NCBI GenBank assembly: GCA_002716085.1
Contig: PAYZ01000016.1
Location: 65,704 to 112,934 of the forward strand
DNA: 47,231 nucleotides
Source of the DNA: Methanobacteriota archaeon
GTDB lineage: Archaea > Thermoplasmatota > Poseidoniia > Poseidoniales > Thalassarchaeaceae
Reading direction: 5' to 3'
The notes below the pieces were generated by a model, which did not search any database, was not told where the DNA came from, and saw only the letters and a list, made by a program, of their open reading frames with translations. Numbering within the stretch: the stretch's first letter is position 1; each line of letters starts with the position of its first letter. A program made the translations under genes and the position numbers. Below are positions 21,774 through 47,231 of this stretch, piece by piece.

Positions 21774-22726
21774 CCTCTGGATATTCCCGAAATCATTGCA
21801 TCTACCATTTCATCTAGATCAAAATTCGGAGACCAATCCCACTCCCTATGAGCAATTGATCCATCAATTGAGTCGGGCCATGAGTCGGCATACCTTTGTC
21901 TAACGTCAGGAGAATAGTCGCAAGAGAATCCTTCTATTCTACGTGAGATGGCTTCTGCAAGTTCCTTTGCTGTAAATGATAAGCACGGAATGTTGTACCC
22001 GGCCTTCCAAATCCCCAATGATTCCGACGGTGCATCCATTAATGTGAGCGTTGCCGTAATTGCATCTTCCATGTACAGCATTGGTAGACGGGTATCTGGT
22101 CGTACGAAGCATTGGTAGTGGCCACTGCCTAAGGCAGAATGGAAAATTTCGACGGCATAATCTGTTGTTCCTCCGCCTGCTGGGGCCTTGTATGAGATTA
22201 GCCCTGGATATCTTATCCCCCTAACGTCAACTCCATACTTATTCCTGTAATCTTTGGCCAAGGCCTCCCCAGTAACCTTTGTCTCCCCATAAACTGTAGT
22301 TGGATTCAGTATGGAATCTTGGAGGGCATGCTTCGGGGCGTCGGGTCCAAAGACCGCTATAGATGATGGAGAAAAGACCTTCAGAGAGCATTCTTTTGCT
22401 GCTTCTAGTACTGAAACTGTCCCCCCGACATTTACTTTCCTGCAGAGATCAGGATCCCTCTCTCCAGTAGCTGAGAGTAATGCAGCAAGGTGGTAGACTG
22501 TGCCAACCCCATGATCAATGCAAACTCTGATGATTTCTTCGGTTTCCAAAACATCGAGAACTACGAAAGGGCCGTCTTCAGCAATTTTATTCCCTTCCGA
22601 ATGGCGAATATCGGATGCAATTACCGAAGATAATCCGTGTTTTATCCTAAGTGCCTCCAGCAAGTCGGTGCCAATCTGACCCAATGCTCCGGTGACCAGA
22701 ACATTGTCTCCGGGAGGGTCCGACAT
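21770..22726 (-). CDS. SDR-type L-threonine 3-dehydrogenase / NAD-dependent epimerase-like
   Basis: Extended short-chain dehydrogenase of 318 residues. The NAD-binding GALGQIGTDL (13-22) and the catalytic Tyr-x3-Lys in VYGETK are present. The segments RYPGLISYKAPAGGGTTDYAVEIF and DTRLPMLYMEDAITATL match closely the SDR-type L-threonine dehydrogenases known from Thermoplasma relatives and some bacteria, which oxidise threonine to 2-amino-3-ketobutyrate. I favour this over UDP-sugar epimerase because of the GGGTTDYAVEI block. The partner 2-amino-3-ketobutyrate CoA ligase is not in the window. On the minus strand a TTTAATTTC element at 22752-22760 is about 30 bases before the ATG and may be its promoter. 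Confidence 0.85.
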   Translation of the reverse strand: MSDPPGDNVLVTGALGQIGTDLLEALRIKHGLSSVIASDIRHSEGNKIAEDGPFVVLDVLETEEIIRVCIDHGVGTVYHLAALLSATGERDPDLCRKVNVGGTVSVLEAAKECSLKVFSPSSIAVFGPDAPKHALQDSILNPTTVYGETKVTGEALAKDYRNKYGVDVRGIRYPGLISYKAPAGGGTTDYAVEIFHSALGSGHYQCFVRPDTRLPMLYMEDAITATLTLMDAPSESLGIWKAGYNIPCLSFTAKELAEAISRRIEGFSCDYSPDVRQRYADSWPDSIDGSIAHREWDWSPNFDLDEMVDAMISGISRG

Positions 22727-22809
22727 GGGTGACCCTAATTCTGGCGATACTTGAAATTAAAGCAGTGGCAAGCAGCATCTAAATTGCCAATGTTGATATG
22801 CGAGGGTCA

Positions 22810-24495
22810 ATGGCTTCAGACCCCGTTGATGAGATGAAGTATGTCGTCGTGACGGGTGGTGTCCTCTCCGGACTTGGCAAGGGAGTGACTGCAAGCAGCA
22901 TTGGAGTTCTGTTGAAAAGCGCTGGACTGAGAGTGACTGCAGTAAAAATAGATCCCTACTTGAATTGCGACGCTGGGACGATGTCCCCCTTTGAACACGG
23001 AGAGGTTTTCGTCCTAGATGATGGTGGAGAAGTGGATTTGGATTTGGGGAACTACGAGAGGTTCCTTGACGTCTGCCTAACAAGGGATAACAACATCACA
23101 ACTGGTAAGGTGTATGACAACGTAATCCAGAAGGAAAGGCGAGGAGATTATCTTGGCAAAACCGTGCAAGTGATCCCCCACATTACTAATGAGATTCAGG
23201 ATTGGATCGAGAGGGTCGCCCATACTCCCAGCGATGGAAACGGAAAGGAGCCTGACGCTTGTGTGATTGAATTGGGCGGAACTGTTGGGGACATCGAAAG
23301 TGCCCCGTTCATCGAAGCTCTGCGTCAGTTCCAATTCAGAGTAGGTCAGGAGAATATTTGCTTCGTTCACGTTAGCCTAATTCCAGTTATGGGTCCAGTA
23401 GGGGAGCAAAAAACAAAGCCGACCCAGCACACAGTAAAGGACCTCAGAGGCCTAGGGATAAATCCCCATATGCTCGTTTGCAGGTCTAAGAGCCCTCTGG
23501 TGGATGAAACTAGAGAAAAGATCTCAGCATTCTGTCACGTTTCTACTGATGCAGTGGTTTCTGCTCATGACGTGTCTAACATCTACCAGGTCCCAATAAT
23601 GCTGGACGACCAAGGAGTTACGAGGATGCTTGCGGAGAGATTCGGGTTCGAACTACCTACCAAAAGGAAGGTCCTGGAAGACTGGAAGGAAATGGCTGAT
23701 CACGTCGACACTCTGGATGAAGCAGAGGAGGTGCACATTGCTGTAGCTGGGAAGTACACTGATTTGGCAGACTCGTACCTTAGTGTAATCAAGGCACTTC
23801 AGCATGCATCTTTCAAGGTGAACAGGAAGCTGGTAATTGACTGGATTGAGTCCTCAGACTTGGATGACGAGGCAAAGGAGTCCGATTCAGAATCCTTCGA
23901 AGCGGCTTGGAAACTTCTGAGGGAGGCCGACGGAATCCTGGTCCCTGGTGGATTCGGCATTAGGGGTATTGAAGGCAAAATCAAGGCGGCCGAGTTCGCC
24001 AGGTTGAACGATGTCCCATACCTTGGAGTATGCTTGGGCCTCCAGGTAGCGACAATCGAGTTCTGTAGAAACGTTCTGGGACTCGAAGGAGCAAATTCAT
24101 CCGAGTTCGATGAAAACGCGCCCCATTCTGCAGTGGTGTTCATGCCTGAAATATCCAAGACACACATGGGTGGGACCATGAGGCTAGGTACCAAGCCCAC
24201 TCCTTTCCTAGTCGATGACTGCAAGATTAGGAGGTTGTACGGAGGAGCTGATCACGTAGACGAGAGGCACAGGCACAGGTACGAGGTAAATCCGGAATTG
24301 ATCGGGGAAATCGAGGGCAAGGGCCTGGTGTACGTTGGCAAGGACGAGACTGGCGAGAGATGCGAGATCATGGAACTCGAAGGGCACACCTACTATGTTG
24401 GAACCCAGTACCACCCGGAGTTCAAGTCAAGGCCGGACAGGCCTAGTCCCCCATTCCTGGGCCTCCTAAAGGCCGCATCTGGAATGGAAGTCTAG
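22810..24495 (+). CDS. pyrG: CTP synthase
   Basis: Converts UTP to CTP using ATP and glutamine. The N-terminal synthase domain starts [20 protein letters not shown] and contains [32 protein letters not shown] and the [11 protein letters not shown] segment. The class I amidotransferase domain has VPGGFGIRG and the nucleophile Cys in [11 protein letters not shown], with the His-Glu of [10 protein letters not shown] near the end. Everything is intact at about 561 residues. Three in-frame ATG codons exist (22798, 22810, 22834); 22810 is chosen because a weak TATA-like TCTAAATT (22778-22785) is about 28 bases upstream, but 22798 is nearly as likely. The stop TAG lies in a CTAG shared with the convergent gene. 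Confidence 0.96.
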
Positions 24496-25646
24496 TCTAC
24501 TGAAACTGGCAATATCCTGGTGGTTCGATATCCCTGTAGTATCTTCATGTACCTCTTAGACGCGAATTCGGCATCAAGATCCTCGTCTCCCGTCTCTATC
24601 CTTAGAGCCCTCACTGTCAGAAGCTTGGCTGGCGTGACTACCCCTAGGACGTTTTCAATCCCGATCTTCCTTAGTACTTCTGGGGAGAGTTGCAGATTTC
24701 CCCTTCCAATAAGAAACCCCTGCCCACCCATAGGGGAAAGCAGCAGAGTTACATCATCATCGTGGGAATCTAGGATTTCTATCAATCTCGCCTCGTCCAA
24801 GTCGGTCCCTATCTGATTTCTCCCCATGGTGGCATCGATCCCCAGTGTTGTCAAATCGAATCCAATATTGCCGCCTATGGAACTAAGCGTACCTCCTGAT
24901 CCCCAAATTATCATCCTATCCTCACTAAGTAATGACTGCTCGATATGGTCCGATAGTCCTTCAATAATCTCGTCTTCCGACTCTGTCTGGATCAGTTCTT
25001 TTGAGCCTTGCATCCACCTTGGCGAGTTAGGGGAGAAAGCCTCTGCGTAGAGCCTCACGACCCATTTTCCTTCTCTGTAAAGGTCTTCATCTAGGTCTAG
25101 AACTTCGGTGCTTGAAACCAGAAGATCGCCATGAATCCATGCAGATAGGACTTCCGCTGCAGCCTTTGGGGAGCTAGCAAAGCACCCAGAATGCATCTTC
25201 ACGCCAGATGGAACTCCTATGACTGGGAGAGATCCAGATCCTGCTGATTCCAATGCAGAAACTATGTCCCTGGTTGTTCCATCTCCACCGGAATAAACTA
25301 GTAATTGTATTTCAGATTCTATAATCTTCTCAATCGCATTTCCGGTGTCTTCGGCCGAGGTTTCACTTGATGACTCGTGTACGTGAATAAATGAGCTTGC
25401 CTGCAGGTCCTCTGGAATCCAATCAGAGCCCATTCTACCTTGGCTAGTTACCCATTCTATTTCGTGAGGTTTTTCCCTGTGTATTCTTGAGAAGTGTTCC
25501 AACATCATTCTCATCCTTGGCCCTGATCTATCCTCAGCCCCCATTGATCGAGCTAATTCTGCTTGACCATCTGATCCCTTCAAACCTAGCCTCCCTCCGA
25601 GACCGGCGTCGGGATTTACGAGTAGGCCAAGTCGCACCATGGACAC
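24492..25646 (-). CDS. ATP-NAD kinase/AcoX-like protein
   Basis: A 384-residue member of the AcoX / ATP-NAD kinase-like group. [13 protein letters not shown] at the N-terminus, the diacylglycerol/NAD-kinase type [10 protein letters not shown] (about residues 118-127) and [14 protein letters not shown] are diagnostic of that group. These proteins share the NAD-kinase fold, but their physiological substrate is mostly unproven, so NAD phosphorylation is only one option. A second conserved half with [16 protein letters not shown] and TLLGIDA-like segments completes the expected length. The start is GTG at 25646, with ATG at 25640 as alternative; a 6-bp hairpin (ACACGC at 25643-25648, GCGTGT at 25657-25662) covers this start. 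It is divergent from carbamate kinase. Confidence 0.85.
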
Positions 25647-25693
25647 GCCAGGGGGCGCGTGTTCTTATCGGTTCACGCTCGGGCGGCTATACG

Positions 25694-26602: not shown

Positions 26603-26670
26603 GGTCAATAGCCGCATAACCTCCAAGGCCTTCATATCAGCGAGTCGACGGGAAGAGCACGAGGGATACC

Positions 26671-28614
26671 GTGACAATGATTTCCGTTGACATAGGAGAT
26701 GGCGAGTATCACGAATACGCCAGTGGGATCAGCGCAGGGGAAGTTATCGAGAACGTCCACGGAAAGAAGAGCGGAGCAGTTGCAGCACTCATTGACGGCG
26801 AAGAGCGAGACATGTCCCACGTTCTGGATCAGGATTGCAAAGTGGAGCCCATTGACGGGGAATCTGAACAGGGACTATACATCATCAGGCACAGCTGTGC
26901 CCATCTGCTTGCCCAAGCAGTGACAGAGCTATTCCCTGATTCAAGGCCAACGATTGGCCCACCAATAGAGCACGGATTCTACTATGACTTCCACATGGAC
27001 CCTATTGGGGAGGACTCCCTGAAGGAGATTGAGAAGAGGATGAAGGAGCTCGCGAAGAAGAACATCCCGATAATCAGGGAAGACCATGGGAACGAGGCAC
27101 TAAGAGAGATGTTCTCCTCAAATCCATTCAAGCTTGAGATAATGGATCAGAAGATCGGCCACGACGTAGGCTCCTCAGCCTATCGTCAAGGCGATTTTGT
27201 TGACCTGTGCAGGGGGCCACACGTATCCTCAACGTCCCAGCTTAGATGGTTCAAGCTTACGAGTACGAGCCAAGCTTACTGGAGAGCGGACAGTGACAGG
27301 GAGTCCCTGGTTAGGATTTACGGAATGTGCTTCGCGACAAAAGAGGGCCTGAAAGAGAGGCAGAGGCAAATCGAAGAGGCTTCCAAGAGAGACCACAAGA
27401 AGATCGGGAAGGAGATGGGGCTCTACATGATAGACGAGATGATTGGAAAGGGCTTGCCTGTTTGGCTACCAAATGGCGAGGTTCTGAAGAGTGAGATCGA
27501 GAGGTTTGCGATAGAGACAGAAGAGGCGTATGGATACGAGAGGGTGACCACTCCCGTCCTAGGGAAAAAGGAGCTCTTCGAAACTAGTGGACACCTCCCG
27601 CACTACTCGGATGGGATGTACCCCCCGATGAAGATGGATGATGGCGAATACTACCTCAAGGCAATGAATTGCCCCATGCACCACCTTGTCTTCAGCAACC
27701 GAAAGAGGTCCTACAGGGAGCTTCCAATTAGAATAGCAGAGTATGGGACCGTATATAGGAACGAGCTCTCTGGAACTCTGGCCGGCCTTCTGAGAGTCAG
27801 GATGCTTTCCATGAACGACGCGCACATATATTGCACGCTCGAACAGGTGGCTCAGGAAGTTGAGAGCAACGTCCGCATGGCACAAGACTACTACGAAGCA
27901 TTTGGCTTCGAAGACTACGACTTCCGACTCTCTCTTTGGGACCCAGAAAACAAAGACAAGTACATCGACCAACCTGAAAACTGGGAAGCAACACAGGATC
28001 ACCTCAGAGTGATTATGGATGATCTGGGGGTCGATTACACGGAGGCAATTGGAGAGGCGGCTTTCTACGGGCCCAAGATAGACATCCAGTTCAGGACCGC
28101 CCTAGGCAGAGAGGAGTCTCTTGCAACGATTCAGCTAGACTTCGCCGCTAAGGAAAGATTCGGTCTTTCCTACATGGATGAGTCTGGAGTCGAGAACGGG
28201 GAGGTTTTCGTAATCCACAGGGCGCCGCTGTCCACGCACGAGAGGTTCGTGGCGTTCTTGCTCGAACAATGGGCAGGCAACCTGCCAACCTGGCTCTCAC
28301 CGATCCAGGTGCAGGTCATTACCATTTCAGAGAAGCACAAGGACTACGCCGAGAAGGTGAGGGAGTCATTGGAGCTTGCTGGAGTGAGGGTGAGGGTGGA
28401 CGACTCCGACAACACCATTGGTAAGAAGATCAGGACTCACAGGAAGGTTAGGCCTGCATACATGGTTATTCTTGGCGACGACGAGATGGACGGCGGTTCG
28501 GTCTCGATCAGGAGCCGGGGCGGCGAACAAAAGAACGGTGTCGCCTTGGAGGAGTTTGTATCGGACATCTTCTCGGAGATCTCCAACAGGAGCAAGGCTC
28601 TGTCAATAGTCTAG
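26671..28614 (+). CDS. thrS: Threonyl-tRNA synthetase, bacterial type
   Basis: Charges tRNA-Thr. At 647 residues it has the full bacterial layout: TGS-like domain (1-65), editing domain with HSCAHLLAQAV and DLCRGPHV, catalytic core with the class II motifs (YRNELSGTLAGLLRVRML for motif 2; ending HRAPLSTHERFVAFLLEQ, motif 3) and the anticodon-binding domain (about 545-647). The zinc ligands are Cys in AMNCPMHH, a His in NDAHIYC and a His in VIHRAPLST. Typical archaeal ThrRS has a different, D-aminoacyl-tRNA-deacylase-like N-terminus, so this is the bacterial/eukaryal form. The start is GTG 26671 or ATG 26677; a TATA-like TCATATCA lies at 26633-26640. Confidence 0.96.
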   Translation: MTMISVDIGDGEYHEYASGISAGEVIENVHGKKSGAVAALIDGEERDMSHVLDQDCKVEPIDGESEQGLYIIRHSCAHLLAQAVTELFPDSRPTIGPPIEHGFYYDFHMDPIGEDSLKEIEKRMKELAKKNIPIIREDHGNEALREMFSSNPFKLEIMDQKIGHDVGSSAYRQGDFVDLCRGPHVSSTSQLRWFKLTSTSQAYWRADSDRESLVRIYGMCFATKEGLKERQRQIEEASKRDHKKIGKEMGLYMIDEMIGKGLPVWLPNGEVLKSEIERFAIETEEAYGYERVTTPVLGKKELFETSGHLPHYSDGMYPPMKMDDGEYYLKAMNCPMHHLVFSNRKRSYRELPIRIAEYGTVYRNELSGTLAGLLRVRMLSMNDAHIYCTLEQVAQEVESNVRMAQDYYEAFGFEDYDFRLSLWDPENKDKYIDQPENWEATQDHLRVIMDDLGVDYTEAIGEAAFYGPKIDIQFRTALGREESLATIQLDFAAKERFGLSYMDESGVENGEVFVIHRAPLSTHERFVAFLLEQWAGNLPTWLSPIQVQVITISEKHKDYAEKVRESLELAGVRVRVDDSDNTIGKKIRTHRKVRPAYMVILGDDEMDGGSVSIRSRGGEQKNGVALEEFVSDIFSEISNRSKALSIV

Positions 28615-28653
28615 TGAAGTATCAATACGGGACCCCTTCTAGGATTGTTCCAC

Positions 28654-29664: not shown

Positions 29665-29672
29665 GTGAGTGG

Positions 29673-30278: not shown

Positions 30279-30279
30279 C

Positions 30280-31359: not shown

Positions 31360-31411
31360 CGACCATCGGAAGCAGGATTAGCAATCAAGAGTTTCCCCGG
31401 ACAAGGATTGC

Positions 31412-38109: not shown

Positions 38110-38132
38110 AGGTCCTGCCGCCCGCATTCAAC

Positions 38133-38140
38133 GTTAATCT
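38133..38140 (-). promoter_or_regulatory. TATA-like box of the giant surface-protein gene
   Basis: AGATTAAC on the minus strand, centred 27-28 bases before the ATG at 38109. It supports that start over the ATG at 38127, which would otherwise lie upstream of the transcript start. Confidence 0.4.
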
Positions 38141-38181
38141 ATTCCGGGAGTTGAGCACTGGTTGAATCCACACAGTAGGAG

Positions 38182-38188
38182 TCATAAG
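38182..38188 (+). promoter_or_regulatory. TATA-like box of the RAM-domain gene pair
   Basis: TCATAAG centred 27 bases before the ATG at 38212, as expected for a leaderless mRNA. Confidence 0.35.
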
Positions 38189-38211
38189 CGGCAAGTTTTC
38201 GCATTGGCCCG

Positions 38212-38445: not shown

Positions 38446-38681
38446 GCTTGGCAGTTGGATTCGTACTTATCACCACCCAGCCCGGGGAAGAGGTAGCAGT
38501 CAGGGAGGCGGTCTCCAAGATCGAATGCGTGAAGGGCATATGGGTGGTCTTCGGGAGCTTCGACTGCTTCGTCAAGGTCGAGGCGGACGACGAGTCGGAG
38601 CTCACGGGCGCGATAGTCCAGGGCATCAGGTCCGTCCCGGGGATTGTGGAGACCAGGACCCTGATCGGAGCTGAGATCTAG
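38442..38681 (+). CDS. Stand-alone Lrp/AsnC ligand-binding (RAM) domain protein 2
   Basis: A second RAM-only protein, 79 residues from the GTG that overlaps the previous gene's TGA. The sequence GFVLITTQPGEEVAVREAV...IWVVFGSFDCFVKVEADDE...VETRTLIGAEI aligns along its whole length with the first RAM protein, so the pair looks like an old tandem duplication with clear divergence. A TTG at 38448 is an alternative start. Two translationally coupled, non-identical RAM subunits suggest a hetero-oligomeric sensor. The stop is in a CTAG that also contains the stop of the convergent HTH-STAND ATPase gene. Confidence 0.85.
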   Translation: MSLAVGFVLITTQPGEEVAVREAVSKIECVKGIWVVFGSFDCFVKVEADDESELTGAIVQGIRSVPGIVETRTLIGAEI

Positions 38682-40840
38682 AGCTCGTTGGCGAGCCTCT
38701 GCATCAGTTGCTTGGCGGCCTGTCCGCACTCCGAGTTCCTTAGGCGCACTATGGCCTCCTTCCAGCTCGATAGCCTGTCCTCGGCGTTCAGAACTCCCCT
38801 CCAGTACCACCAGTGGGATGCAGCCCTCCTGTGGGAGGCTATGTCGGGCCTGAGCTGCTCGAGATCGAAGGACGAGTGCGCCTCTTCCAACCACCGTGGC
38901 GGTTCGGAGCAGTACTCGAGCGCCAGGTGCATGGTCCTGAGCCTGTCAAGGGGCTCATCCGCTGACTCGATGTAGGAGCGAGCGGAGTAAAGCGCGTCCA
39001 AGAATGCCTCTCCCTCGGTCCCGGAGGAAAGCCTCGCCCTCAGATCCAGGGAGTGTATCCTGGGGTCATCGGGCCCCATGCTGCCCTCGATGGAGGCCCT
39101 AGTCCTGGACGCCGCCTCCAGATCGCCCATCTCCAGGGCTAGCGAGTGCCTAAGCAGGTCCAGTGCGAGGGAAGCGAGCCCCCTGTCCTCCATTCCGAGC
39201 TCGGAGACGTCCACCGAGTCGGCTCCGCTGGTGAGCTCCTGTGCCAGGCTGTCCTTGATCCTCCCTGGGAGCCTGTCGTCGTACCTCCTTACTAGGGCCG
39301 CAATCTGCGCTCGGGCCCTGGCTGAGGGCTCGAGGGCCGATATGGCCGAACCCTCAAGCTCTTCCGCCCTGCTCCAGTCCCCCTCGACCCTGGCGAGCCT
39401 AGCGGACCTTAGATCCCTGCCAGGTCCCTCGCTAAGGGAGCTGATGTGCGAGGATGCGACCTCCGCCTCGCCCCTCTCCAGCGCTATGTCTGCAGCCATC
39501 TCTACAAGCGACTCATCGCCGAAAACGGATATTGCCCTCTCGAGGACCACAGCTGCGGCCGAGCTGTCTGCGCTAGCGATCCCGGGGATGTTCTCGGAAA
39601 GCCAAGCGGAGTCTTCCTCGGACCCGGACTCGAGGCGGTGGTGCGCCTCCATCCTCCTCGCCCTCGGGCCATCCCTGGAGGACCACATCTTAGCGATCCT
39701 GGAGTGTAGCTCCTCGACTTCCTCGCCCTGGAGGGAGGCCCTCCTTACGTTCCTGACCAGGTGGTGAGGCTCTACCTCGACCCCCGACCACCTCAGGATC
39801 GCCGACTCGTCGAGCTCGTCGGCACCATCCGGCTCTAGCATCTCCTCGACCCTCAGGGGGAGGGGGGAGAGCGAGAGCTCGTCGAGGGAGGATGTGCCGT
39901 CCCCCGACAGCCTTCGAATGACCGTGGACTCCACGTACTCCTGGACGGCTCCGACGCCAGGGAGCTCGTCTTCAGGGGACCAGAGCTTGATCCCAAGGGG
40001 GTGCCCGTCCATTGCCTGGCACACCTCCATGGCACTGGCCTCCTCCATGTCGTCCGGCAGGAGTGCCACGGCCTGGGAAGGCTCGAGGCCCTCCAGCCTG
40101 ACTGGCTCGAAGCCTGAAAGGCTGGCGAACGGGTTCGGCGCCCTGGTCACCACCATCACCGAGGCCGAGCTGGCGGAGCATGCCTCTAGCAGCACCTGGA
40201 TGGAGCTGGTGTGCCTCTCGTCGGCCTGCTGGGCCTCGTCCAGGACCAGGAGGGTCCTGCTGGTGTCCACCTTTTCCACTACTGCCTCCGTGGAAGAGGG
40301 CGATCTCCTTCCCAGCCACATGGCCGAGACGGAGGATGAGTCGGAGTCGGAGTTGCAGGTGGCCCATCTGACCAGCCACCCGGAGTCCAGCAGGCTCTCG
40401 CAGACGGCCGTGCTGACGCTGGTCTTCCCGATCCCCGGGAGGCCCTCGAGGAGGAGGCTGCCTCCCTCCGAGAGGGCGGATGTGATGCGATCCACGACCT
40501 CCTCCCTGCCGTGGAGCGAGATGGGGTCTGGCATCGGCCCGATGGCCATGCCCCTGTCCGGCACGGCATCCACGGCCTCCCTGGAGGCCTCCCTGCCCTT
40601 CTCTGTGGCGTGGAACACCTTCCTCCTCCGGGGGGAGCCGATCACGTGGGTGGTCCTCGTGGTAACGAACCCCTCCTCCTGGAGGGACTTCAGGGGCGGG
40701 TTCAGGGCCGACCTCACGACGCCCAGGTGCTCCGAGAGCCCTGCTAGGGACAGGCCCCTGGGGACGTCCCAGGACTCCTCTAGGTCCCTGCCGAAGCCGG
40801 AAAGGAAGGCCAGGATGTCGAGCTGGCGCTGGCTGAGCAC
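38678..40840 (-). CDS. HTH-STAND ATPase with TPR-like C-terminal region
   Basis: About 720 residues in three parts. The N-terminus is a winged-helix domain (LSQRQLDILAFLSGFG...LSLAGLSEHLGVVRSALNPPLKSLQEEGFVTTR) with a following basic hairpin GSPRRRKVFHAT. A P-loop ATPase follows, with Walker A GLPGIGKTS and Walker B TLLVLDEAQ, then VMVVTRAP (sensor 1) and HPLGIKLWS as in NB-ARC/STAND proteins. The remaining 400 residues are alpha-helical and Ala/Glu-rich, like TPR repeats, and could sense a ligand. This architecture fits a signal-activated transcription regulator; a defence role is possible but nothing nearby supports it. GTG at 40840 is chosen because a TATA-like element (GATTTACA near 40863) precedes it by about 23 bases; GTG at 40882 would add 14 residues. 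Confidence 0.85.
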   Translation of the reverse strand: MLSQRQLDILAFLSGFGRDLEESWDVPRGLSLAGLSEHLGVVRSALNPPLKSLQEEGFVTTRTTHVIGSPRRRKVFHATEKGREASREAVDAVPDRGMAIGPMPDPISLHGREEVVDRITSALSEGGSLLLEGLPGIGKTSVSTAVCESLLDSGWLVRWATCNSDSDSSSVSAMWLGRRSPSSTEAVVEKVDTSRTLLVLDEAQQADERHTSSIQVLLEACSASSASVMVVTRAPNPFASLSGFEPVRLEGLEPSQAVALLPDDMEEASAMEVCQAMDGHPLGIKLWSPEDELPGVGAVQEYVESTVIRRLSGDGTSSLDELSLSPLPLRVEEMLEPDGADELDESAILRWSGVEVEPHHLVRNVRRASLQGEEVEELHSRIAKMWSSRDGPRARRMEAHHRLESGSEEDSAWLSENIPGIASADSSAAAVVLERAISVFGDESLVEMAADIALERGEAEVASSHISSLSEGPGRDLRSARLARVEGDWSRAEELEGSAISALEPSARARAQIAALVRRYDDRLPGRIKDSLAQELTSGADSVDVSELGMEDRGLASLALDLLRHSLALEMGDLEAASRTRASIEGSMGPDDPRIHSLDLRARLSSGTEGEAFLDALYSARSYIESADEPLDRLRTMHLALEYCSEPPRWLEEAHSSFDLEQLRPDIASHRRAASHWWYWRGVLNAEDRLSSWKEAIVRLRNSECGQAAKQLMQRLANEL

Positions 40841-40856
40841 GGTACGCCGGCTTGCA

Positions 40857-40867
40857 AAGTGTAAATC
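40857..40867. promoter_or_regulatory. Shared AT-rich promoter element of the STAND and uvrC genes
   Basis: AAGTGTAAATC is the only AT-rich stretch between the two divergent genes in this GC-rich region. In one direction it is about 23 bases before GTG 40840, in the other about 35 before ATG 40897, so a single region may serve both genes. Confidence 0.3.
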
Positions 40868-40896
40868 AAACCCCGCGCCCACCGCTTCATCGGACC

Positions 40897-42597
40897 ATGG
40901 GCATAGATCAGAGCAAGTTGGACCTCCCGGCGAAGCCAGGAGTGTACATTTTCCGGAGGAGCGACGAGCGCGTGATGTACGTCGGGAAGGCTACGGACCT
41001 GAGGTCCAGGGTCAGGTCATACTTCTCCAAGAGGCCTGACAGGGAGATGATCCCCCGGCTACTGGACGAGTCTTCTGAGATCGACTTCATAGTCACGCAG
41101 ACGCCGTCCGAGGCGCTTGTCCTGGAGAGGCAGATGATCAGGTCCCACCAGCCCAGGTACAACTCTATGCTGAAGGACGGCAAGTCGTTCCCCTTCATCG
41201 CGATCACCGCCCACGAAAGCCCGCGCATACTCTACACTCGGCACCCGCCCGAGGACGCGAAGATTTGGGGGCCATTCCCGGATGCCGGGGCTGCAAAGCT
41301 GGTGGTCAAGCTGCTTCGCAGGCACTTCGGGATCAGGGACAACAGCGACAGGGCCCCGTTCGGGTTCGTTGAGACCGGGGGCGAGGAGGGCTACGCCGAG
41401 AGGGTGAGGGCGGCAGAGAGCGTCCTCGACGGTAACGCGGGCGTTCTGATAGGGAGGCTCCAGGGGGAGATGGACGATGCGTCGGAGTCCCTCGACTACG
41501 AGAGGGCGGGCAGGGTCAGGGACATGATCGGCTCCGTCCAGAGGGCCATGTCCGAGAACGTGGTCTCCAGCAGGTTCTACCAGGACTGCGACGCTGTAGG
41601 CTTCTCGTCCCAGGGGGACAACGGGTGCCTGGTCATCCTGCACGCGAAGGGCGGGATCATCCAGGGCCAGGTGGACTACCCCCTGATCCACAGGGGCGAC
41701 GTGTCCGACTCGGTCTCACTGGTGCTCTCCGAGCACTACTCCAAGAGGAGGCCGCCACGGACCCTGCTAGTCCCCTCCCCGCTGGGCGACTCGATGGCCG
41801 AGTGGCTGGCCCAGAGGAGGTCGGGCCAGGTGGACGTCAGGGTCCCCCAGAGGGGCGAGCTGGCCAAGCTCAGGTCCATGGCGGACAGGAACGCGGAGAT
41901 ACAGCTGATCCGGAGCTCGAAGTCCAGCTCGGGCAACCTCGAGAAGGCGGCTGCCGACGACGGAGCGAGGCTCCTCGGGCTCCCCTCCCTGGACCACCTG
42001 GTGTGCTTCGACATGTCGCAGAACCTCGGAAACGAGCGTGTGGGCGCCTCCGTGGTGATGAGGGGCGGCAGGCCCTCCAAGTCGGAGTACAGGACCTACA
42101 GGGTCAGGTCCGACGCCCCAGACGACCTCAGGATGATGTCCGAGGTGGTCGGGAGGTGGGCCAAGAGGCAGGAGGAGTGGCCCGACCTGCTACTGCTGGA
42201 CGGGGGCAAGACCCACCTGTCAGCTATCGAGTCCGAGCTGGAGGGCCGTGGCCTGTCCGGGCTGTTCCCGGTAGCTGCCCTGGCCAAGAGGGAGGAGACC
42301 CTGCACATGGCCGGGACCGAGCCCATCGCCCTGGACAGGAGGGGCAGGGTGCTAGTGCACGCCAGGGACGAGTCGCACAGGTTCGCAAACAGCTACCACA
42401 AGAAGAGGAGGGGCAAGGGCGCTCTCTCGGACCCGCTCGAGGAGGTCGAGGGGCTAGGGGCGAAGAAGATCCAGGCCCTCCTGAGGCACTTCGGTGGCAG
42501 GAAGGGGATCGAGCACGCCACGGCCGGGGAGCTCAGGGACGTCCCCGGAATAGGCAAGGAGATGGCCGAGAGGATCCGCGCGCACCTCAGGGGGTGA
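40897..42597 (+). CDS. uvrC: UvrABC excinuclease subunit C
   Basis: DNA repair endonuclease that makes both incisions around a UvrB-bound lesion. The domains are in order: GIY-YIG nuclease (PGVYIFRRSDERVMYVGKA, residues 13-31), UVR helical hairpin near 185-215 (MDDASESLDYERAGRVRDMI), an RNase H-like endonuclease domain with VCFDMSQNLG and LLLDGGKTHL, the late Asp/His segment SHRFANSYHKKRRG, and two HhH motifs to the end (LGAKKIQALLRHFGG; LRDVPGIGKEMAERI). The 566-residue length is slightly short but all domains are complete. The ATG at 40897 is chosen over a TTG at 40852 inside the divergent gene's start. uvrA and uvrB are not in the window. GC content is high, but Arg is still mostly AGG, as in AT-richer genes of the window. 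Confidence 0.95.
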   Translation: MGIDQSKLDLPAKPGVYIFRRSDERVMYVGKATDLRSRVRSYFSKRPDREMIPRLLDESSEIDFIVTQTPSEALVLERQMIRSHQPRYNSMLKDGKSFPFIAITAHESPRILYTRHPPEDAKIWGPFPDAGAAKLVVKLLRRHFGIRDNSDRAPFGFVETGGEEGYAERVRAAESVLDGNAGVLIGRLQGEMDDASESLDYERAGRVRDMIGSVQRAMSENVVSSRFYQDCDAVGFSSQGDNGCLVILHAKGGIIQGQVDYPLIHRGDVSDSVSLVLSEHYSKRRPPRTLLVPSPLGDSMAEWLAQRRSGQVDVRVPQRGELAKLRSMADRNAEIQLIRSSKSSSGNLEKAAADDGARLLGLPSLDHLVCFDMSQNLGNERVGASVVMRGGRPSKSEYRTYRVRSDAPDDLRMMSEVVGRWAKRQEEWPDLLLLDGGKTHLSAIESELEGRGLSGLFPVAALAKREETLHMAGTEPIALDRRGRVLVHARDESHRFANSYHKKRRGKGALSDPLEEVEGLGAKKIQALLRHFGGRKGIEHATAGELRDVPGIGKEMAERIRAHLRG

Positions 42598-42601
42598 TGG
42601 A

Positions 42602-43453
42602 CTGCCTAGGAATGACCCGCACGAAGCACTGGGGGAATCGGTCTCCGAGTGGGCCGGGGGGGATCCCCCGGGGGACCTGCCACGGAGGTGGGAGAGGTTC
42701 GCTGACGTGGCGATACTGCCCGCGGGGGCCTTCTCCGGGCCCGAGTGGGACGTCGGCCCGGGGCTCTGGGAGGCGGTGGCCTCCGGGCTGGGTGCCCAGC
42801 GCCTGGCGAGGATGGGCGAGGTGACAGGGGAGCTCCGCGAGAGCGGGGTCGAGATGCTCCTGGGGGACGACGACTGGGTCGTCCGCAGGGAGAGCGGCAT
42901 CGACTACGGATACAGGATGACCCGCTGCATGTTCTCGGCGGGCAACGTGAACGAGCGGAGGAGGATGGGCGAGGTCGTCTCGGAGGGCGAGGTCGTTGTC
43001 GACATGTACGCCGGGATCGGCTACTACACGCTCCCGATGCTCGTCAGCGGAGGGGCCTCCCTGGTGCACGCCTGCGAGTGGAACCCGGAGGCAGTCGCCT
43101 CCCTGGACTGGGGCCTCGAGGCCAACGGCGTCGAGGGCAGGTGCGTCGTCCACGTGGGCGACAACAGGGAGGCCGCGGGCTCGCTTGCGGGCGTGGCCGA
43201 CAGGGTCGTCCTGGGGCTGCTGCCCAGCTCAGAGGAGGGCTACGGGACCGCGCTGTCCGTGCTCAGGCCGGAGGGCGGTACGCTGCACGTGCACGGGCTG
43301 GCGCCCGCAGGCGGCCACGGCGCCTGGGCCGAGGGGGTCGAGGGGGAGCTGTCGGGGATGAGGCCGGGCAGCGAGCTGTCCTCCTCCGTCACGAGGGTGA
43401 AGTCGTACGCCCCCCACTGGGACCACGTGGTGCTGGACGTCACCGTGGCGTAG
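42602..43453 (+). CDS. taw2: TYW2-like tRNA-wybutosine methyltransferase-fold enzyme, abnormal start
   Basis: Class I SAM-dependent enzyme of the TYW2/Trm5 family, which transfers the 3-amino-3-carboxypropyl group of SAM (TYW2) or a methyl group to the modified G37 of tRNA-Phe. VVDMYAGIGYYTLPMLVSG is the SAM site, followed by VHACEWNPEAVASLDWGLEANGV and VHVGDNRE, all characteristic. The first normal start codon in this frame is GTG at 42707, but the conserved segment LPRRWERFADVAILPAG begins before it (about 42677). The frame is open from 42554 and contains no ATG, GTG or TTG before 42707; CTG codons exist at 42602 and 42629. A real gene may therefore start at a CTG, or have lost one base after the ATG at 42597 that overlaps the uvrC stop. 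Confidence 0.75.
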   Translation: MPRNDPHEALGESVSEWAGGDPPGDLPRRWERFADVAILPAGAFSGPEWDVGPGLWEAVASGLGAQRLARMGEVTGELRESGVEMLLGDDDWVVRRESGIDYGYRMTRCMFSAGNVNERRRMGEVVSEGEVVVDMYAGIGYYTLPMLVSGGASLVHACEWNPEAVASLDWGLEANGVEGRCVVHVGDNREAAGSLAGVADRVVLGLLPSSEEGYGTALSVLRPEGGTLHVHGLAPAGGHGAWAEGVEGELSGMRPGSELSSSVTRVKSYAPHWDHVVLDVTVA

Positions 43454-43483
43454 GCTCAAACGCGCCCACGCGAGCGCGATATC

Positions 43484-44173
43484 ATGCGAGACTGGCTGTT
43501 GGGAGCCGCCGAGGCGTACAACAGGGACTCGTACGAGCAGAGGGAGAGGTACTCGACGTACCTCCTGATGCCCATAGACACGCTGCGCACGGTCATCCAG
43601 TGGAGCATGGACTCCATCCCAGACGAGGTCCTGATAGGGTTCGACCCGGACCGGGAGAGGCCCAACCCGGGGCACGTCGACGAGGCTTTCGGGCCTGCCA
43701 AGACGGAGTTCTCGGGGCACGGCTACCTGCTGGGCAAGCCCCACATCGTGAACGTGGGGGACTCGTACAGCGTCCACCACGTCCCCGAGGAGTGGACCGA
43801 CGGGGTGTTCTCCCAGGAGCGGGGGGCCAGGGGCTCGAGGTTCTCCTCGTTCCTCCACAGCCACCCCAACGCCTACGCCCGGCCGAGCCCGGCCGATGCC
43901 GAGGCGGCGGACTGGACTGAGGGCGTGGAGATGATCCTGGGGATCAGGTTCAGCCCGGCCCCCCTCGGCCTGGAGTGGCTCGAGGACGAGGAGAGCCACA
44001 GGAGGGGCCTGGACCCGGGCAGCGAGGGCGAGCTTCCCGTGCTGGCGCAGGTCTCGGGCAGGAAGATCCACGCGTTCGAGCTGATCGGGTACCTCCGGAA
44101 CGGCGAGGGCGTTAACCTGGTGATCACTTCGCCCGAGGGGGAGCCGATCGGGCTTGGAGTCAGTCGAGCTTGA
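43484..44173 (+). CDS. JAB/MPN-domain metalloprotease (JAMM motif)
   Basis: A 229-residue protein with a full JAMM zinc-protease motif: His125-Ser-His127, seven residues, Ser135, two residues, Asp138 (LHSHPNAYARPSPADAEAADW). The upstream catalytic Glu could be Glu48 in PDEVLIGFD, which matches the family spacing. Such proteins remove ubiquitin-like modifiers or process sulfur-carrier proteins; in archaea the substrates are SAMP/Urm1-like conjugates. An unusual N-terminal insertion and the extra C-terminal beta domain (LPVLAQVSGRKIHAFELIGYL) set it apart from short archaeal JAMM proteins. No SAMP, E1-like or MoaE gene is adjacent, so the substrate is unknown. The last 14 bases overlap the convergent oligoribonuclease gene. 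Confidence 0.82.
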   Translation: MRDWLLGAAEAYNRDSYEQRERYSTYLLMPIDTLRTVIQWSMDSIPDEVLIGFDPDRERPNPGHVDEAFGPAKTEFSGHGYLLGKPHIVNVGDSYSVHHVPEEWTDGVFSQERGARGSRFSSFLHSHPNAYARPSPADAEAADWTEGVEMILGIRFSPAPLGLEWLEDEESHRRGLDPGSEGELPVLAQVSGRKIHAFELIGYLRNGEGVNLVITSPEGEPIGLGVSRA

Positions 44174-44702
44174 GGTACTGCTGGACGTAGAACCTCAGCT
44201 CGTCCAGGCTCCCCTTGGCATCGGCCAGCGCGGTGTGGTCGCTCCTCTTGTAGAACCTAGGCCCATTGGGGGACACCCTCCTGAAGAGCTCCTTGAGGGA
44301 GCTGACGTCGATGATCCTGAACGTGCAGAAGTCCGCCACCATGGGCATCTCCCTCCTGATGAACCTCATGTCGTGGTGGACGCTGTTCCCAGCGATGATG
44401 GCGCCCTTCGCCATGTGCTCCCTGAGCAGCGCCATCACCGACTCCTCCGCCTCCGCGATGGAGACTCCCTCCTCGTGGACCCTCCTGATCAGCCCGGACT
44501 CCCCGTGGGTCTTGGTGTTCCAGTCGTCCATCGAGTCCAGTACTCCCGGGTCGTCGGGCTTCACCGCCAGGCACATCTCGGCCCCCTCGACGGGAGTCAG
44601 GTCGGCCTCGACTACCAGGCAGGCGACCTCGATGATCCTCTCGGACTCCGGGTCCAGGCCGGTCATCTCGAGGTCTAGCATGCAGATGCGCGAGTCCTTC
44701 AC
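44160..44702 (-). CDS. orn: Oligoribonuclease (DEDDh 3'-5' exonuclease)
   Basis: Degrades short RNA oligomers, including dinucleotides, to mononucleotides. Motif ExoI LDLEMTGLDPESERIIEVA, ExoII around AGNSVHHDMRFIRREMP, IDVSSLKELFRR and the ExoIII HTALADAKGSLDEL with the general-base His and Asp are all present, plus MDDWNTKTHGESGL, which is specific to Orn. The length, 180 residues, is normal. Orn is a proteobacterial, actinobacterial and eukaryal enzyme and is uncommon in archaea, so gene transfer is likely, although composition matches its neighbours. The GTG at 44702 is favoured over 44726 because a TATA-like box sits 26 bases upstream. It is divergent from the MFS gene. Confidence 0.93.
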   Translation of the reverse strand: MKDSRICMLDLEMTGLDPESERIIEVACLVVEADLTPVEGAEMCLAVKPDDPGVLDSMDDWNTKTHGESGLIRRVHEEGVSIAEAEESVMALLREHMAKGAIIAGNSVHHDMRFIRREMPMVADFCTFRIIDVSSLKELFRRVSPNGPRFYKRSDHTALADAKGSLDELRFYVQQYLKLD

Positions 44703-44724
44703 GGGCTGCCCATCTGAAACCCGC

Positions 44725-44732
44725 ACTTATTC
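44725..44732 (-). promoter_or_regulatory. TATA-like box of the orn gene
   Basis: GAATAAGT on the minus strand, centred about 26 bases before the GTG at 44702, the spacing expected for a leaderless mRNA. Confidence 0.35.
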
Positions 44733-44780
44733 ATGTTGGCCGTGGGGTGACAGTCATAGAGCCGGCGTCGTCGGGAGTCC

Positions 44781-46037
44781 GTGGCCTCACCCGGGTACCT
44801 CGAGTTGCTGAGGGGCAACAGGAGCTTCCGCAGGCTTTTCGCCAGCGAGATGGTGATGTTCACCGGGGACTGGTTCTCCGTCATCGCGATGTTCCTGCTC
44901 GCAGCGGAGGCTTCCGACGACTCGCCCCTTGCCATAGCGGGCGTCCTGGCTGTCCGGAGCTTCACCTTCGCCCCGATGGAGCCGATCACCGGTACCCTGG
45001 CAGACCGCTACTCCAGGAAGGGGCTGATGCTCGCCTCCAACGTCCTGTCGTTCCTCCTGCTGGCATCGTTCATCGCGCTCGACCTGATGGGGGACCTTCT
45101 CTCCGTCTACCTGCTCGCGATGCTGCTGGTGGTGGGCAGGGCCATCTACGACCCGGCCCAGACCGCATACCTGCCGAACGTGTGCGACGAGGACGAGCTG
45201 CTCACGGCCAACGCCCTGGTGTCGGGGGGCTGGTCGGCCTCCATGGGGATCGGGGCTGGCCTCGGGGGCCTGGTGATCTCCGAGTACGGGGTCGAGACCG
45301 GCCTGATCATCGACTCCGTGACGTTCCTCTTCGCGGCCCTGGTCATCACGACCCTTCCCCAGGGAGGGCCTGACCCCACGGAGAGGAAGTCCTCCAACCC
45401 GATCGACGTGTTCAGGGAGATGTTCGCGGGATGGGGCCACGTCCTGGCGAGGCCCCACATCAGGAGGATAGTCCTGGCCAAGGGGGCGTGGGCCACCGGG
45501 GGAGGCGCCCAGATATTCCTGCTGATCCTGATAGGGATGGAGGCTGGCTTCGGGGACGTGGCTGCCGGGATCGGGGTGGTCTACCTCTGCCGCGGCTTCG
45601 GTTCGGGGTTCGGGCCGCTGGTCGGCAGGCCACTGATGGCCATGCCCAGGGTGATGCCCTACCTGATCGGGTTCGCCCTGAGCGGGGCCGGGCTCCTCTA
45701 CGTGGGGGTCTCGCAGTTCGAGTGGGGGATGCTCACCCTGGTCTGCATATTCTTCTCCCACGGCTGCAGCGGGATGTCCTGGGTGTTCAGCACGACTCTG
45801 CTGCAGCGCAGGACGGACGACGAGTGGATGGGCCGTGTGGCCGGCACTGACAACCTGATCATCACCCTGACCATGGGGGTCTCGACCCTGCTTGCGGGGA
45901 TAGCCATGGAGAACGAGCTGTTCGAGCTGAGGGAGATGCTGCTGCTGACCGCTGCGATCCAGATGACGGTCGGCGTGCTCTGGCTGCTCGTGGCCTCGCC
46001 GAGGGAGGGGGAGTTCATGTTCCCTACAGGAGCCTAG
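44781..46037 (+). CDS. MFS permease, MFS_3/EntS-like
   Basis: Major facilitator of 418 residues with about 12 membrane segments. LLRGNRSFRRLFASEMVMFTGDWFSVIAMFLL at the N-terminus is the pattern of the EntS/macrolide-efflux-like MFS_3 group (an 'FRRLF...' start followed by a first helix), and LADRYSRKGLMLASN is the cytosolic loop 2-3 motif of the superfamily. It likely exports a small organic compound; the substrate cannot be told. The start is GTG at 44781 and there is no clear ribosome site. The gene is in the most GC-rich part of the window. Its last 14 bases overlap the stop of the convergent membrane-protein gene. Confidence 0.9.
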   Translation: MASPGYLELLRGNRSFRRLFASEMVMFTGDWFSVIAMFLLAAEASDDSPLAIAGVLAVRSFTFAPMEPITGTLADRYSRKGLMLASNVLSFLLLASFIALDLMGDLLSVYLLAMLLVVGRAIYDPAQTAYLPNVCDEDELLTANALVSGGWSASMGIGAGLGGLVISEYGVETGLIIDSVTFLFAALVITTLPQGGPDPTERKSSNPIDVFREMFAGWGHVLARPHIRRIVLAKGAWATGGGAQIFLLILIGMEAGFGDVAAGIGVVYLCRGFGSGFGPLVGRPLMAMPRVMPYLIGFALSGAGLLYVGVSQFEWGMLTLVCIFFSHGCSGMSWVFSTTLLQRRTDDEWMGRVAGTDNLIITLTMGVSTLLAGIAMENELFELREMLLLTAAIQMTVGVLWLLVASPREGEFMFPTGA

Positions 46038-46806
46038 GCAGGCCCAGAAGGACGACCAGCGGGAACACGGAGAACAGCGTCCCAGTGAGCATGGAGCGCT
46101 TCGATGCCTCGACCCTCTCGCTGATCCTGGTCTGGATCTCGGAGTCCATCCTGTCCACGGCGTCGCCCGCGGGCACCCTCACCTGGTCCAGGGCCATGTC
46201 CAGGACGTCGGCCCCCATGTTGAGCACGGAGGAGACCGCGCCGAATACGGGGTTGCCTGCCTCCTGCTGGGCCCCCTTCTCGGGCTCGCTGGCCCATGGC
46301 CTTGGGATCCTGAAGCCCCTGACGGCCTTGAGAAGGTCCCTGCCCACGACCGCGGTGTCCACGGCCTGCTTGGCGGTGTCTATGTCCAGCTCGGCTAGCC
46401 TGCGGATGTGGCCCCTGCTCCTCGCGACCCTGCCGAAGTCGTATCCGACCCACATCATCCCGGCCAGCAGCAGCAGGGCGAGCCCCAGGAACGGTATCTC
46501 CCAGCTCTCCCAGCCGATCGGCCCGATGTACAGGCGCGCTGCGACGGCGATCGCGCCGGGCAGCACCACGGCCAGCAGCTCGTTGAGCACTATGAGCCAG
46601 AATCGCTCGGCGTTGAGCCTCTTGATCCGGTCCAGCACCCACCTGGCGTGCTTGGTCCTGTCATCCTTGGGCAGGAACTTGTGCGACAGGTCGAGGAGCG
46701 GCGGGGCGACGAAAATGAGCCTCATCAGGAACGGCAGCAGGAGGATGATCGTGTACGCCTCGAAGGGGCTGAGCGGGGGCACGGACGGTAGCAGCGCCTC
46801 CGACAT
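46024..46806 (-). CDS. Multi-pass membrane protein, function unknown
   Basis: No recognisable family. The 260-residue product has a first membrane segment (YTIILLLPFLMRLIFVAPPLL), a cytoplasmic basic helix (KFLPKDDRTKHARWVLDRIKRLNAER), then two segments (FWLIVLNELLAVVLPGAIAVAARLYI; IPFLGLALLLLAGMMWVGYDFG), an amphipathic helical region with heptad-like spacing (residues about 150-245), and a last hydrophobic segment at the C-terminus (TLFSVFPLVVLLGLPRLL). The ATG at 46806 is chosen because the TATA-like box at 46876-46883 would give a start near 46853; GTG at 46842 is possible, TTG at 46872 is unlikely. It is the last gene before the composition cliff. Confidence 0.72.
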   Translation of the reverse strand: MSEALLPSVPPLSPFEAYTIILLLPFLMRLIFVAPPLLDLSHKFLPKDDRTKHARWVLDRIKRLNAERFWLIVLNELLAVVLPGAIAVAARLYIGPIGWESWEIPFLGLALLLLAGMMWVGYDFGRVARSRGHIRRLAELDIDTAKQAVDTAVVGRDLLKAVRGFRIPRPWASEPEKGAQQEAGNPVFGAVSSVLNMGADVLDMALDQVRVPAGDAVDRMDSEIQTRISERVEASKRSMLTGTLFSVFPLVVLLGLPRLL

Positions 46807-46858
46807 GGCGCCCTTCAGGAGGCCGTGACCAATCAACCTCACTGCTTCGGGCTGTGGC

Positions 46859-46873
46859 GTTGCCGATGGCAAC
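46859..46873. promoter_or_regulatory. Perfect 15-bp dyad at the composition cliff
   Basis: GTTGCC-GAT-GGCAAC is a perfect palindrome between the TATA-like box at 46876-46883 and the inferred transcript start near 46853. It is well placed for a repressor of the downstream membrane-protein gene. Confidence 0.4.
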
Positions 46874-46875
46874 TA

Positions 46876-46883
46876 GCATATAC
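46876..46883 (-). promoter_or_regulatory. TATA-like box before the membrane-protein gene
   Basis: GTATATGC on the minus strand. A start about 26 bases downstream would be near 46853, so translation should begin at GTG 46842 or ATG 46806. Confidence 0.4.
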
Positions 46884-46896
46884 TTCGTAGCCCTAG

Positions 46897-46921
46897 GATA
46901 GGTTTTCCCAGCAAACCTATC
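46897..46921 (-). terminator. Hairpin between the right-edge gene and the membrane-protein gene
   Basis: GATAGGTTT (46897-46905) pairs perfectly with AAACCTATC (46913-46921) around a 7-base loop. On the minus strand it follows the stop of the right-edge gene and a T-rich run ATTTTTGAG at 46923-46931, which is what an archaeal terminator usually needs. It could also be a protein or replication-linked site, since it stands exactly where base composition changes. Confidence 0.45.
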
Positions 46922-46936
46922 TCAAAAATTTGTCAA

Positions 46937-47231
46937 TTAGAGGCCGGTTCTATCTCTGAATTCTTTTGTTGCTCTTTTGCCTATTTCGTCAACTCTTTTT
47001 CCATATCTAATGGCTTTCTTTTTCGTTCCTCTTACGGTCTTTCTGGTGGATCGGACAGCGTCAACCATTAAATCTTCAAACAAACTCATTATTTCGCCGA
47101 TCAAGCTCTTAATTTCTACGTCATCTCTTTCCTCAGAAAAAGCTTGAATGATTTCCAATTTATGAGACTCTGATTTCTCTGAGATTTCATGAATTGCCTC
47201 TATTTGCTCATTGATTTCCTGTTGAGAGATG
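46937..47231 (-). CDS. Charged, coiled-coil-like protein, 5' end outside the window
   Basis: The reading frame stays open to base 47231, so the N-terminus is missing; 97 residues are visible. I do not recognise it. The visible part has a helical, heptad-like pattern (INEQIEAIHEISEKSESHK; IKSLIGEIMSLFEDLMV) and a very basic C-terminal third (STRKTVRGTKKKAIRYGKRVDEIGKRATKEF), so it may bind nucleic acid or a membrane. Base composition is about 33-37% GC in the lines counted, unlike the roughly 65-70% GC genes next door. It is followed by a T-run and hairpin. Confidence 0.65.
   Translation of the reverse strand, partial: ISQQEINEQIEAIHEISEKSESHKLEIIQAFSEERDDVEIKSLIGEIMSLFEDLMVDAVRSTRKTVRGTKKKAIRYGKRVDEIGKRATKEFRDRTGL

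Follow-up and report, generated by a model that had tools for sequence, protein, structure and literature searches.

We analysed a window of 47,231 nucleotides (bases 65704–112934 of contig C17, the right end of the window being the end of the contig) from a metagenome-assembled genome (MAG) of 1.58 Mb and 27 contigs with an estimated contamination of 5.85%, referred to as G000 below. Towards the right end of the window, the GC content rises to a peak over a block of six core genes, which encode UvrC, a methyltransferase, a JAB-domain-like protein (JAB), an oligoribonuclease-like exonuclease (orn), an MFS transporter, and a conserved protein, g282. Comparison with related genomes showed that the raised GC is regional, lies in syntenic resident genes, and is limited to one clade, and that, in four recent lineages, changes from G or C (S) to A or T (W) are about five-fold rarer within the peak than in its flank. 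The chances appear to us about evenly balanced that the peak reflects GC-biased gene conversion at a persistent hotspot of recombination and insertion. Among named relatives, the closest uvrC genes were found in genomes of Ca. Thalassarchaeaceae and Marine Group II (Marine Group IIb for the window MAG).

GC content along the window

In 1-kb windows, the GC content was mostly 0.44–0.50 at 1–23 kb (but 0.50–0.535 at 16–19 kb), 0.48–0.57 at 23–37 kb, 0.58–0.60 at 37–39 kb, and 0.64–0.71 at 38.5–46.5 kb, with a maximum of 0.709 at 42501–43500. The GC percentages at four-fold degenerate sites and at third codon positions (GC3) followed the same course. At 20–25.6 kb, the four-fold value was 38 in the thermosome gene (Cpn60/TCP1, Pfam PF00118; 20178–21773, + strand; GC3 43), 41 in an epimerase gene, 45 in the CTP synthase gene (PF06418/PF00117; 22798–24495, +; GC3 57), which was used as the flank anchor for orienting relatives, and 39 in an NAD kinase gene. 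It was 47–55 in the four genes at 26.7–32.8 kb, from the threonyl-tRNA synthetase gene thrS (Pfam; 26671–28614, +; GC3 66) at the foot of the ramp through a glycosyltransferase gene. In mid-ramp, a surface-type protein gene (beta-helix and PKD matches in Pfam; 33472–38127, −) had a GC3 of 68. At the shoulder (38.7–40.9 kb), an AAA ATPase gene (AAA_16; 38678–40882, −; GC3 84) reached 79; its product possibly has an N-terminal winged helix, the PadR and MarR matches being under their Pfam cut-offs.

The block at 40.9–46.9 kb starts with uvrC (Pfam; 40852–42597, +), for which the four-fold GC and GC3 were 85 and 89, respectively. The corresponding values were 90 and 92 for the TYW2/Trm5-type methyltransferase gene (identified by Pfam and by tblastn with the gene of G161; 42584–43450, +), 90 and 93 for JAB (Prok-JAB at 23 bits against a cut-off of 25; 43466–44155, +), 88 and 93 for orn (RNase_T; 44160–44726, −), 88 and 92 for the MFS gene (Pfam; 44781–46037, +), and 88 and 91 for g282 (46024–46806, −). 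The last gene has no Pfam match, encodes a membrane protein as judged by eye, and forms the right edge of the conserved block; its start was placed at the ATG at 46806, which is common to the relatives. Three further open reading frames (ORFs; 42587–43153, −; 42745–43920, +; 43229–44071, −) matched nothing in Pfam and were taken as out-of-frame shadows of the methyltransferase and JAB genes.

Over 20 genes of the window, GC3 correlated with position (Spearman 0.91), and the profile consisted of a shallow rise over approximately 20 kb followed by a steep shoulder near 38.5 kb. Arginine codons remained mostly AGG throughout the ramp, and G and C increased about equally at four-fold sites. The long ramp over core genes and the constant use of AGG, both described in an initial annotation made from the sequence, were thus borne out. 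When the GC change was fitted over 160 overlapping 24-kb stretches from seven sampled contigs of G000, including the ramp, its standard deviation (SD) was 0.054 and the largest value was 0.21. Exponential fits to the four-fold GC of 13 genomes, including flat ones, gave lengths from 0.6 to 40 kb (15.5 kb in G000; 3.5–7.6 kb in six of nine other raised genomes and 1.4, 12, and 33 kb in the rest). Because of this scatter, no tract length is claimed; in most fitted relatives, the rise was shorter than the ramp reported for the window genome.

A compositional domain of a replication origin or terminus is improbable. An Orc1/Cdc6 gene does lie on the same contig (G000:C17:32411–33499), but the distance to the peak is approximately 80 kb, the 2-kb bin around the gene has 42% GC, and a second Orc1/Cdc6 gene lies on another contig. 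Furthermore, the cumulative GC skew (4-kb steps) showed no clear turn at the peak, as far as the unclosed genomes of the genus allow.

The rise in related genomes

The genus comprised 28 genomes, of which 20 provided uvrC DNA for comparison; in the remaining eight (G002, G003, G005, G006, G009, G016, G018, and G162), uvrC was not matched at all or the match was weak and to another protein. The six-gene block was GC-raised in 13 of the 20 genomes, with a uvrC GC3 of 79–90 in 12 and of 67–68 in G160, where the flank had a four-fold GC of 40–48%. In a 14th genome, G161, the rise was found further right: the GC3 of uvrC was 55, followed by values of 73–90 from approximately 8 kb further right. The maximum of G161 lay approximately 11–26 kb to the right of the uvrC start, so that the initial description of a peak at a fixed point is only approximate. 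The genomes G004, G011, G015, G020, G023, and G024 were flat. In G010, the peak was two-sided with a gentle fall on each side; GC3 was 57 in the surface gene, 62 in the AAA gene, and then 81, 77, 85, 82, 82, and 79, followed by 68, 73, 68, 74, 70, and 60 to the right of the block. The records of G010 and G013 (AG-422-I20 and AG-457-A01), which are among the raised genomes, carry no MAG label in their titles, and we take both to be single-cell genomes from the form of these names. Should this hold, the peak is an artefact neither of binning nor of a metagenome chimera.

In a collection of named genomes, we compared the difference between uvrC and surface-gene GC3 at 80 loci, leaving out 13 in which one of the two genes was missing. 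The remainder comprised 13 loci of the genus (including L142, which is G024) and 54 loci of other genera. The difference was +15.9 to +24.2 in 10 of the 13 genus loci and −0.5, 0.9, and 2.9 in three flat ones, whereas none of the 54 other loci was raised (mean −0.7, SD 3.4, range −13.5 to +4.5). For the same 1297 orthologous codons in 12 genomes, GC3 ranged from 56 to 92, with GC1 and GC2 rising alongside. In this codon set, GC3 was 92 in G000 versus 58 in G011, and the order was reversed in the left flank (51 versus 65).

In a tree of five flank proteins, which does not include G161 and G023, the raised species grouped together (support 0.998), with the flat G004 and G011 as their sister. G012 and G017, which are raised over a GC-rich background, fell outside this group (split support 0.73). 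The uvrC genes of the raised species were 71–82% identical and showed no supported split against the flank tree. These results reproduce the rise in related species and agree with the initial statement that the ramp is not one transferred island, since the genes are syntenic residents and uvrC does not conflict with the flank.

Direct selection for GC-rich DNA or codons, acting on translation, DNA stability, or, as Weissman et al. (2019) suggested, tolerance of breaks, would also raise GC, and we consider it quite improbable. Weissman et al. (PMC6867656) report that GC is raised around AT-rich restriction sites and decays mostly within 50 bp, whereas the scale here is kilobases and codon positions 1 and 2 rise too. 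The same genes are unraised in the 54 loci of other genera. In addition, the flank thermosome gene, which we presume to be highly expressed, has a GC3 of only 43.

Substitution pattern at the peak

The direction of each synonymous change was assigned by parsimony from comparison with a sister and outgroups, and the MFS gene was left out of the counts because its tree conflicts with the flank tree. In the pooled lineages of G021, G014, G007, and G000, S-to-W changes were found at 56 of 2138 sites in the peak versus 314 of 2452 in the flank (odds ratio (OR) 0.18, p = 3e-40). This suppression stood when only four-fold sites were used (OR 0.21). W-to-S changes were more frequent in the peak (21/66 versus 240/1254; OR 1.97, p = 0.017), as were changes between G and C (74/2138 versus 36/2452; OR 2.4, and 2.0 at four-fold sites). 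Since S-to-W changes fell five-fold while G-to-C and C-to-G changes doubled, a reduced supply of mutations is excluded, and either a fixation bias or an altered mutation spectrum fits. The equilibrium GC at the peak was estimated as approximately 0.92 on the branches of these four genomes (MFS included) and as 0 to 0.96, from few sites, on other branches. The initial annotation had postulated a GC-biased process, and the pattern is indeed that of a local bias towards GC.

G019 and its sister G021 have CTP synthase genes that are approximately 93% identical in nucleotide sequence, but G019 gave a different result. Its S-to-W changes were 61 of 633 in the peak versus 61 of 673 in the flank, and W-to-S changes at the peak were 0 of 15. 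Judging from these counts, the force appears to be off in G019 and the peak to be decaying.

Position effect, insertions, and synteny breaks

An acetamidase gene occurs within the high zone in G161, whereas G000 has it on contig C2. The two proteins are 92% identical, while GC3 was 76 in G161 versus 44 in G000; among conserved synonymous third positions of differing class, 163 had W in G000 and S in G161, and 34 the reverse. In this comparison, GC apparently follows position, not gene identity.

At 11 loci of other genera, uvrC, methyltransferase, JAB, orn, MFS, and g282 followed one another in this order. Most of these loci had additional genes; JAB was not found in one and g282 in two, and MFS was inverted in one. 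Within the genus, the junction between JAB and orn contained a 1.9-kb insert with two ORFs in G014, a family-B polymerase gene in G160, and an aldo/keto reductase gene in G020. The G014 insert had approximately 50–60% GC within surroundings of approximately 65%, and the GC3 of its ORFs was 70 and 58 versus 88–94 in the resident genes; the insert appears to have arrived recently and to have been raised only in part. To the right of g282, we found an S51 peptidase gene in G010 and G013, an S15-type hydrolase gene in G021, G019, and G160, a pseudouridine synthase gene in G161, a rhodanese-like gene (by eye) in G011 and G004, and the ORF P0001 in G000. Comparison of the gene order beyond 46.9 kb, as proposed in the initial annotation, therefore gave five kinds of neighbour across species. 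The block is a hotspot of insertion and rearrangement, where different genes occupy the same core junction depending on the species.

The neighbours of g282 in G010 (S51, two winged-helix genes, HxlR, HADH, and a glycosyltransferase gene) were found on contig C16 of G000 with GC3 of 78–82; thus the junction between g282 and S51 is broken in G000. Contig C16 had 56–64% GC over approximately 44 kb, so that G000 has GC-rich stretches besides the peak, and fell to approximately 50% near 48 kb, just past the S51 and glyoxalase genes. This fall coincides with a synteny break relative to G010.

A horizontally transferred island of high GC is scarcely credible. The species-specific genes to the right of the block and in the JAB–orn junction are what such an island might bring, but the block order is kept in other genera and uvrC has no supported split against the flank tree. 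Moreover, arginine remains AGG, the left edge is gradual, and the resident genes exceed the G014 insert in GC content.

Evidence on recombination at the block

In the MFS tree, five of eight supported splits were against the flank tree, and G010, G013, G014, and G160 shared one allele type (support 1.0), contrary to the flank tree. The reconstructed trees thus show at least one allele replacement between species in the MFS gene. Pairwise identity, surveyed in this region, revealed long tracts that were replaced or nearly identical; for example, G001 and G013 were 98–99% identical over approximately 9 kb within a background of 92–96%. To the left of uvrC in G001, G013, G022, and G010, tracts of approximately 5–10 kb at 97–100% identity alternated with stretches in which identity dropped to as low as 72–88%. 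Such alternation would be expected from the exchange of long tracts between close species. The JAB and orn genes (43466–44726 of the window, and the relatives) formed two deep allele types, approximately 71–86% identical within and 41–55% between types, at the same syntenic place; this suggests a replacement in situ in an ancestor.

On the reading of GC-biased gene conversion, one clade of Ca. Thalassarchaeaceae would be subject to a position-specific force favouring G and C; it would act on the core genes from uvrC to g282, approximately 6–10 kb, and tail off leftwards as a skirt. DNA breaks at the hotspot, or incoming DNA, would be repaired by homologous recombination with long tracts, and heteroduplex mismatches would be resolved towards G or C. 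The ramp would then result from the distance-dependent inclusion of sites in the tracts. Arriving DNA would begin at its own GC and be raised later, and the stretch after 46.88 kb is possibly such a recent insert. We infer the more frequent recombination at this place, the GC-favouring resolution of mismatches, and the initiating cause alike.

Several points weigh against this reading. The doubling of changes between G and C is not predicted by conversion bias alone, and between-species changes of this kind do not separate fixation bias from mutation bias. At four-fold sites without MFS, W-to-S changes were 8 of 30 versus 132 of 592 (OR 1.27, p = 0.65). In G010 and G022, S-to-W changes were not suppressed (peak 12/185 versus flank 136/2632) and at four-fold sites went in the opposite direction (OR 2.05, p = 0.047). 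Because S-to-W changes are at the flank rate in G019 and unsuppressed in these two, the force must be supposed to have stopped there. G011 and G004 have the block and no peak. The G014 insert is partly raised (GC3 70 and 58), not wholly unraised, and the polymerase gene (polB) in G160 has a GC3 of 78, similar to its neighbours. Eight intergenic spacers of 30–95 bp, which are too few and short, had 39–62% GC without a clear trend. Conflicting supported splits were more frequent in the six peak genes than in nine flank genes (9/39 versus 6/85, p = 0.017), but the excess was not significant without MFS (4/31 versus 6/85, p = 0.45), and the flank count is lowered because five of the nine flank genes built the reference tree. 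Contigs ended in an 8-kb zone over the block in 13 of 19 genomes versus 4.6 expected from mean contig sizes (rounded), with G024 (borderline) and the eight genomes without uvrC omitted; this excess speaks for a hotspot, but the zone was picked after seeing the data. One of the 13 is G015, a flat, AT-rich species, and strain diversity or GC dropout would both produce such ends. Lastly, conversion in Haloferax volcanii had no clear GC direction in the available text of PMC8223754. The recombination hotspot proposed in the initial annotation is upheld in part: the reproducible rise and the variable genes on the right agree with it, and the excess of tree conflicts at the peak was significant only with MFS.

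The main rival is a local bias of mutation or repair without gene conversion, caused for instance by fork stalling, a repair pathway, or local DNA damage, in which GC-to-AT changes become fewer and other changes more frequent so that GC equilibrates at a high level. The doubled changes between G and C suggest an altered mutation process; they fit recombination-associated mutation and are equally a point for this rival, as is the equilibrium estimate of approximately 0.92 in G000, G021, G014, and G007. On the other hand, S-to-W changes were cut five-fold with those between G and C uncut, which a mere decrease in mutation supply does not account for. G and C also rise about equally at four-fold sites, and the block is where insertions, an allele replacement, and breaks in synteny are found. 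We regard mutation bias as rather unlikely, though as more serious than selection, a replication domain, or an island.

The GC drop at 46.88 kb

The drop near 46.88 kb noted in the initial annotation is present, with 25-bp bins of 28–50% GC from 46876 to the end. It occurs in the assembly of this genome alone and comprises the last 359 bases of the contig, whereas in G010 GC3 declines gently to the left and to the right. Of the 359 bases, the first 64 are spacer upstream of g282, and the rest is one AT-rich ORF fragment. In a six-genome alignment of the region upstream of g282 (46807–46936), similarity stopped approximately 65 bp upstream of the start, where GC drops; the spacer is AT-rich in G010 too (37% GC at −140 to −70). 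The fragment, P0001 (46937–47230, −; 97 amino acids), runs off the contig end, and its GC3 of 36 and AGA arginines (8 of 9) contrast with the neighbouring genes. No other match at E ≤ 0.001 was found in 40 relatives (best 0.04), and none was confirmed in viral contigs or phages; the best PHROG match had an E-value of 0.052.

We prefer the explanation that AT-rich DNA was recently inserted at the hotspot and that this stretch may be its edge. For the drop alone, a chimeric assembly at the end of the contig is a possible alternative, though well short of even probability. The stretch is the extreme end of its contig, the estimated contamination of the MAG is 5.85%, two other contigs of the bin have 28–32% GC at their ends where these were sampled, and relatives likewise have contigs that terminate in this zone. 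Against a chimera, the break falls on the upstream side of g282, a place at which the neighbouring genes often differ by species.

Separately, contigs C5, C21, and C27 of G000 (left 12 kb sampled) had stretches of 25–41% GC in a bin otherwise mostly of 40–65%; these are possible contaminants or mobile elements.

A second GC ramp

At the right end of contig C13 of G000 (L222 and L211), GC rose from 47% to 69% over the last 20 kb, with GC3 of 59 in an SRP54 gene (by eye), 71 in a transporter gene (by eye), and 81 in the eIF5A gene. The contig ends within a gene for a protein of at least 3385 amino acids with DTDGDG repeats (GC3 81). The GC3 of eIF5A was 72–90 in 16 of the 18 genus genomes with a match and 23–25 in the AT-rich G015 and G024; among 12 loci of another family, it was 86 in G032, 68 in G037, and 34–60 in the rest. 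Since a single giant gene with repeats makes up the end of this ramp, and a codon bias peculiar to eIF5A might contribute, we do not count it as an independent proof.

Comparison with known systems and significance

Eukaryotic recombination hotspots show a local GC peak that decays with distance, and the hotspots turn over between sister species; unlike the present case, they involve meiotic machinery, which is absent here. In bacteria, GC-biased gene conversion has been argued from gene-level relations (Lassalle et al. 2015, PMC4450053). As described there, GC is higher where recombination is inferred, also in core genes, but this is a gene-level relation within genomes, whereas we observed one extreme peak with a skirt that spans species. 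Sulfolobus, the only archaeal group in that study, gave little evidence of recombination according to its text (PMC4450053). In Escherichia coli (Touchon et al. 2009, PMC2617782), insertions and rearrangements likewise recur at the same core-gene junctions and regional GC is tied to recombination; the GC effect reported there is a low-GC terminus, and the available text describes no sharp GC peak. Replacement flexible genomic islands of aquatic prokaryotes (PMC4033161) also combine a conserved site with varying gene content and a role of homologous recombination, but their description, as far as available, mentions no GC ramp in the flank. For Marine Group II, GC is given only at the genome level in the accessible part of one paper (PMC6461757), and no earlier description of such a GC peak was found in the portions of the literature searched.

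Taken together, ordinary core genes that are unremarkable in the other sampled genera have an extreme GC content in many species of one genus, at what looks like a long-lived hotspot. Contigs of MAGs are often binned, and foreign DNA in them recognised, by a deviating GC content; such a deviation can be native. Somewhat more tentatively than for the locus itself, and at slightly less than even probability, we propose that some marine archaea may have heritable, place-bound hotspots of GC-biased conversion that persist through speciation, impose a GC3 of approximately 90% on resident core genes, and are off in single lineages such as G019. They would be a prokaryotic counterpart of the GC peaks at eukaryotic recombination hotspots, with the locus of eIF5A and the giant surface protein possibly being a second such place. 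This single locus would make GC-biased gene conversion testable in archaea: the effect is large, replicated, and clade-limited, and the sister lineages in which the force looks on (G021) and off (G019) provide a natural experiment for population metagenomes.

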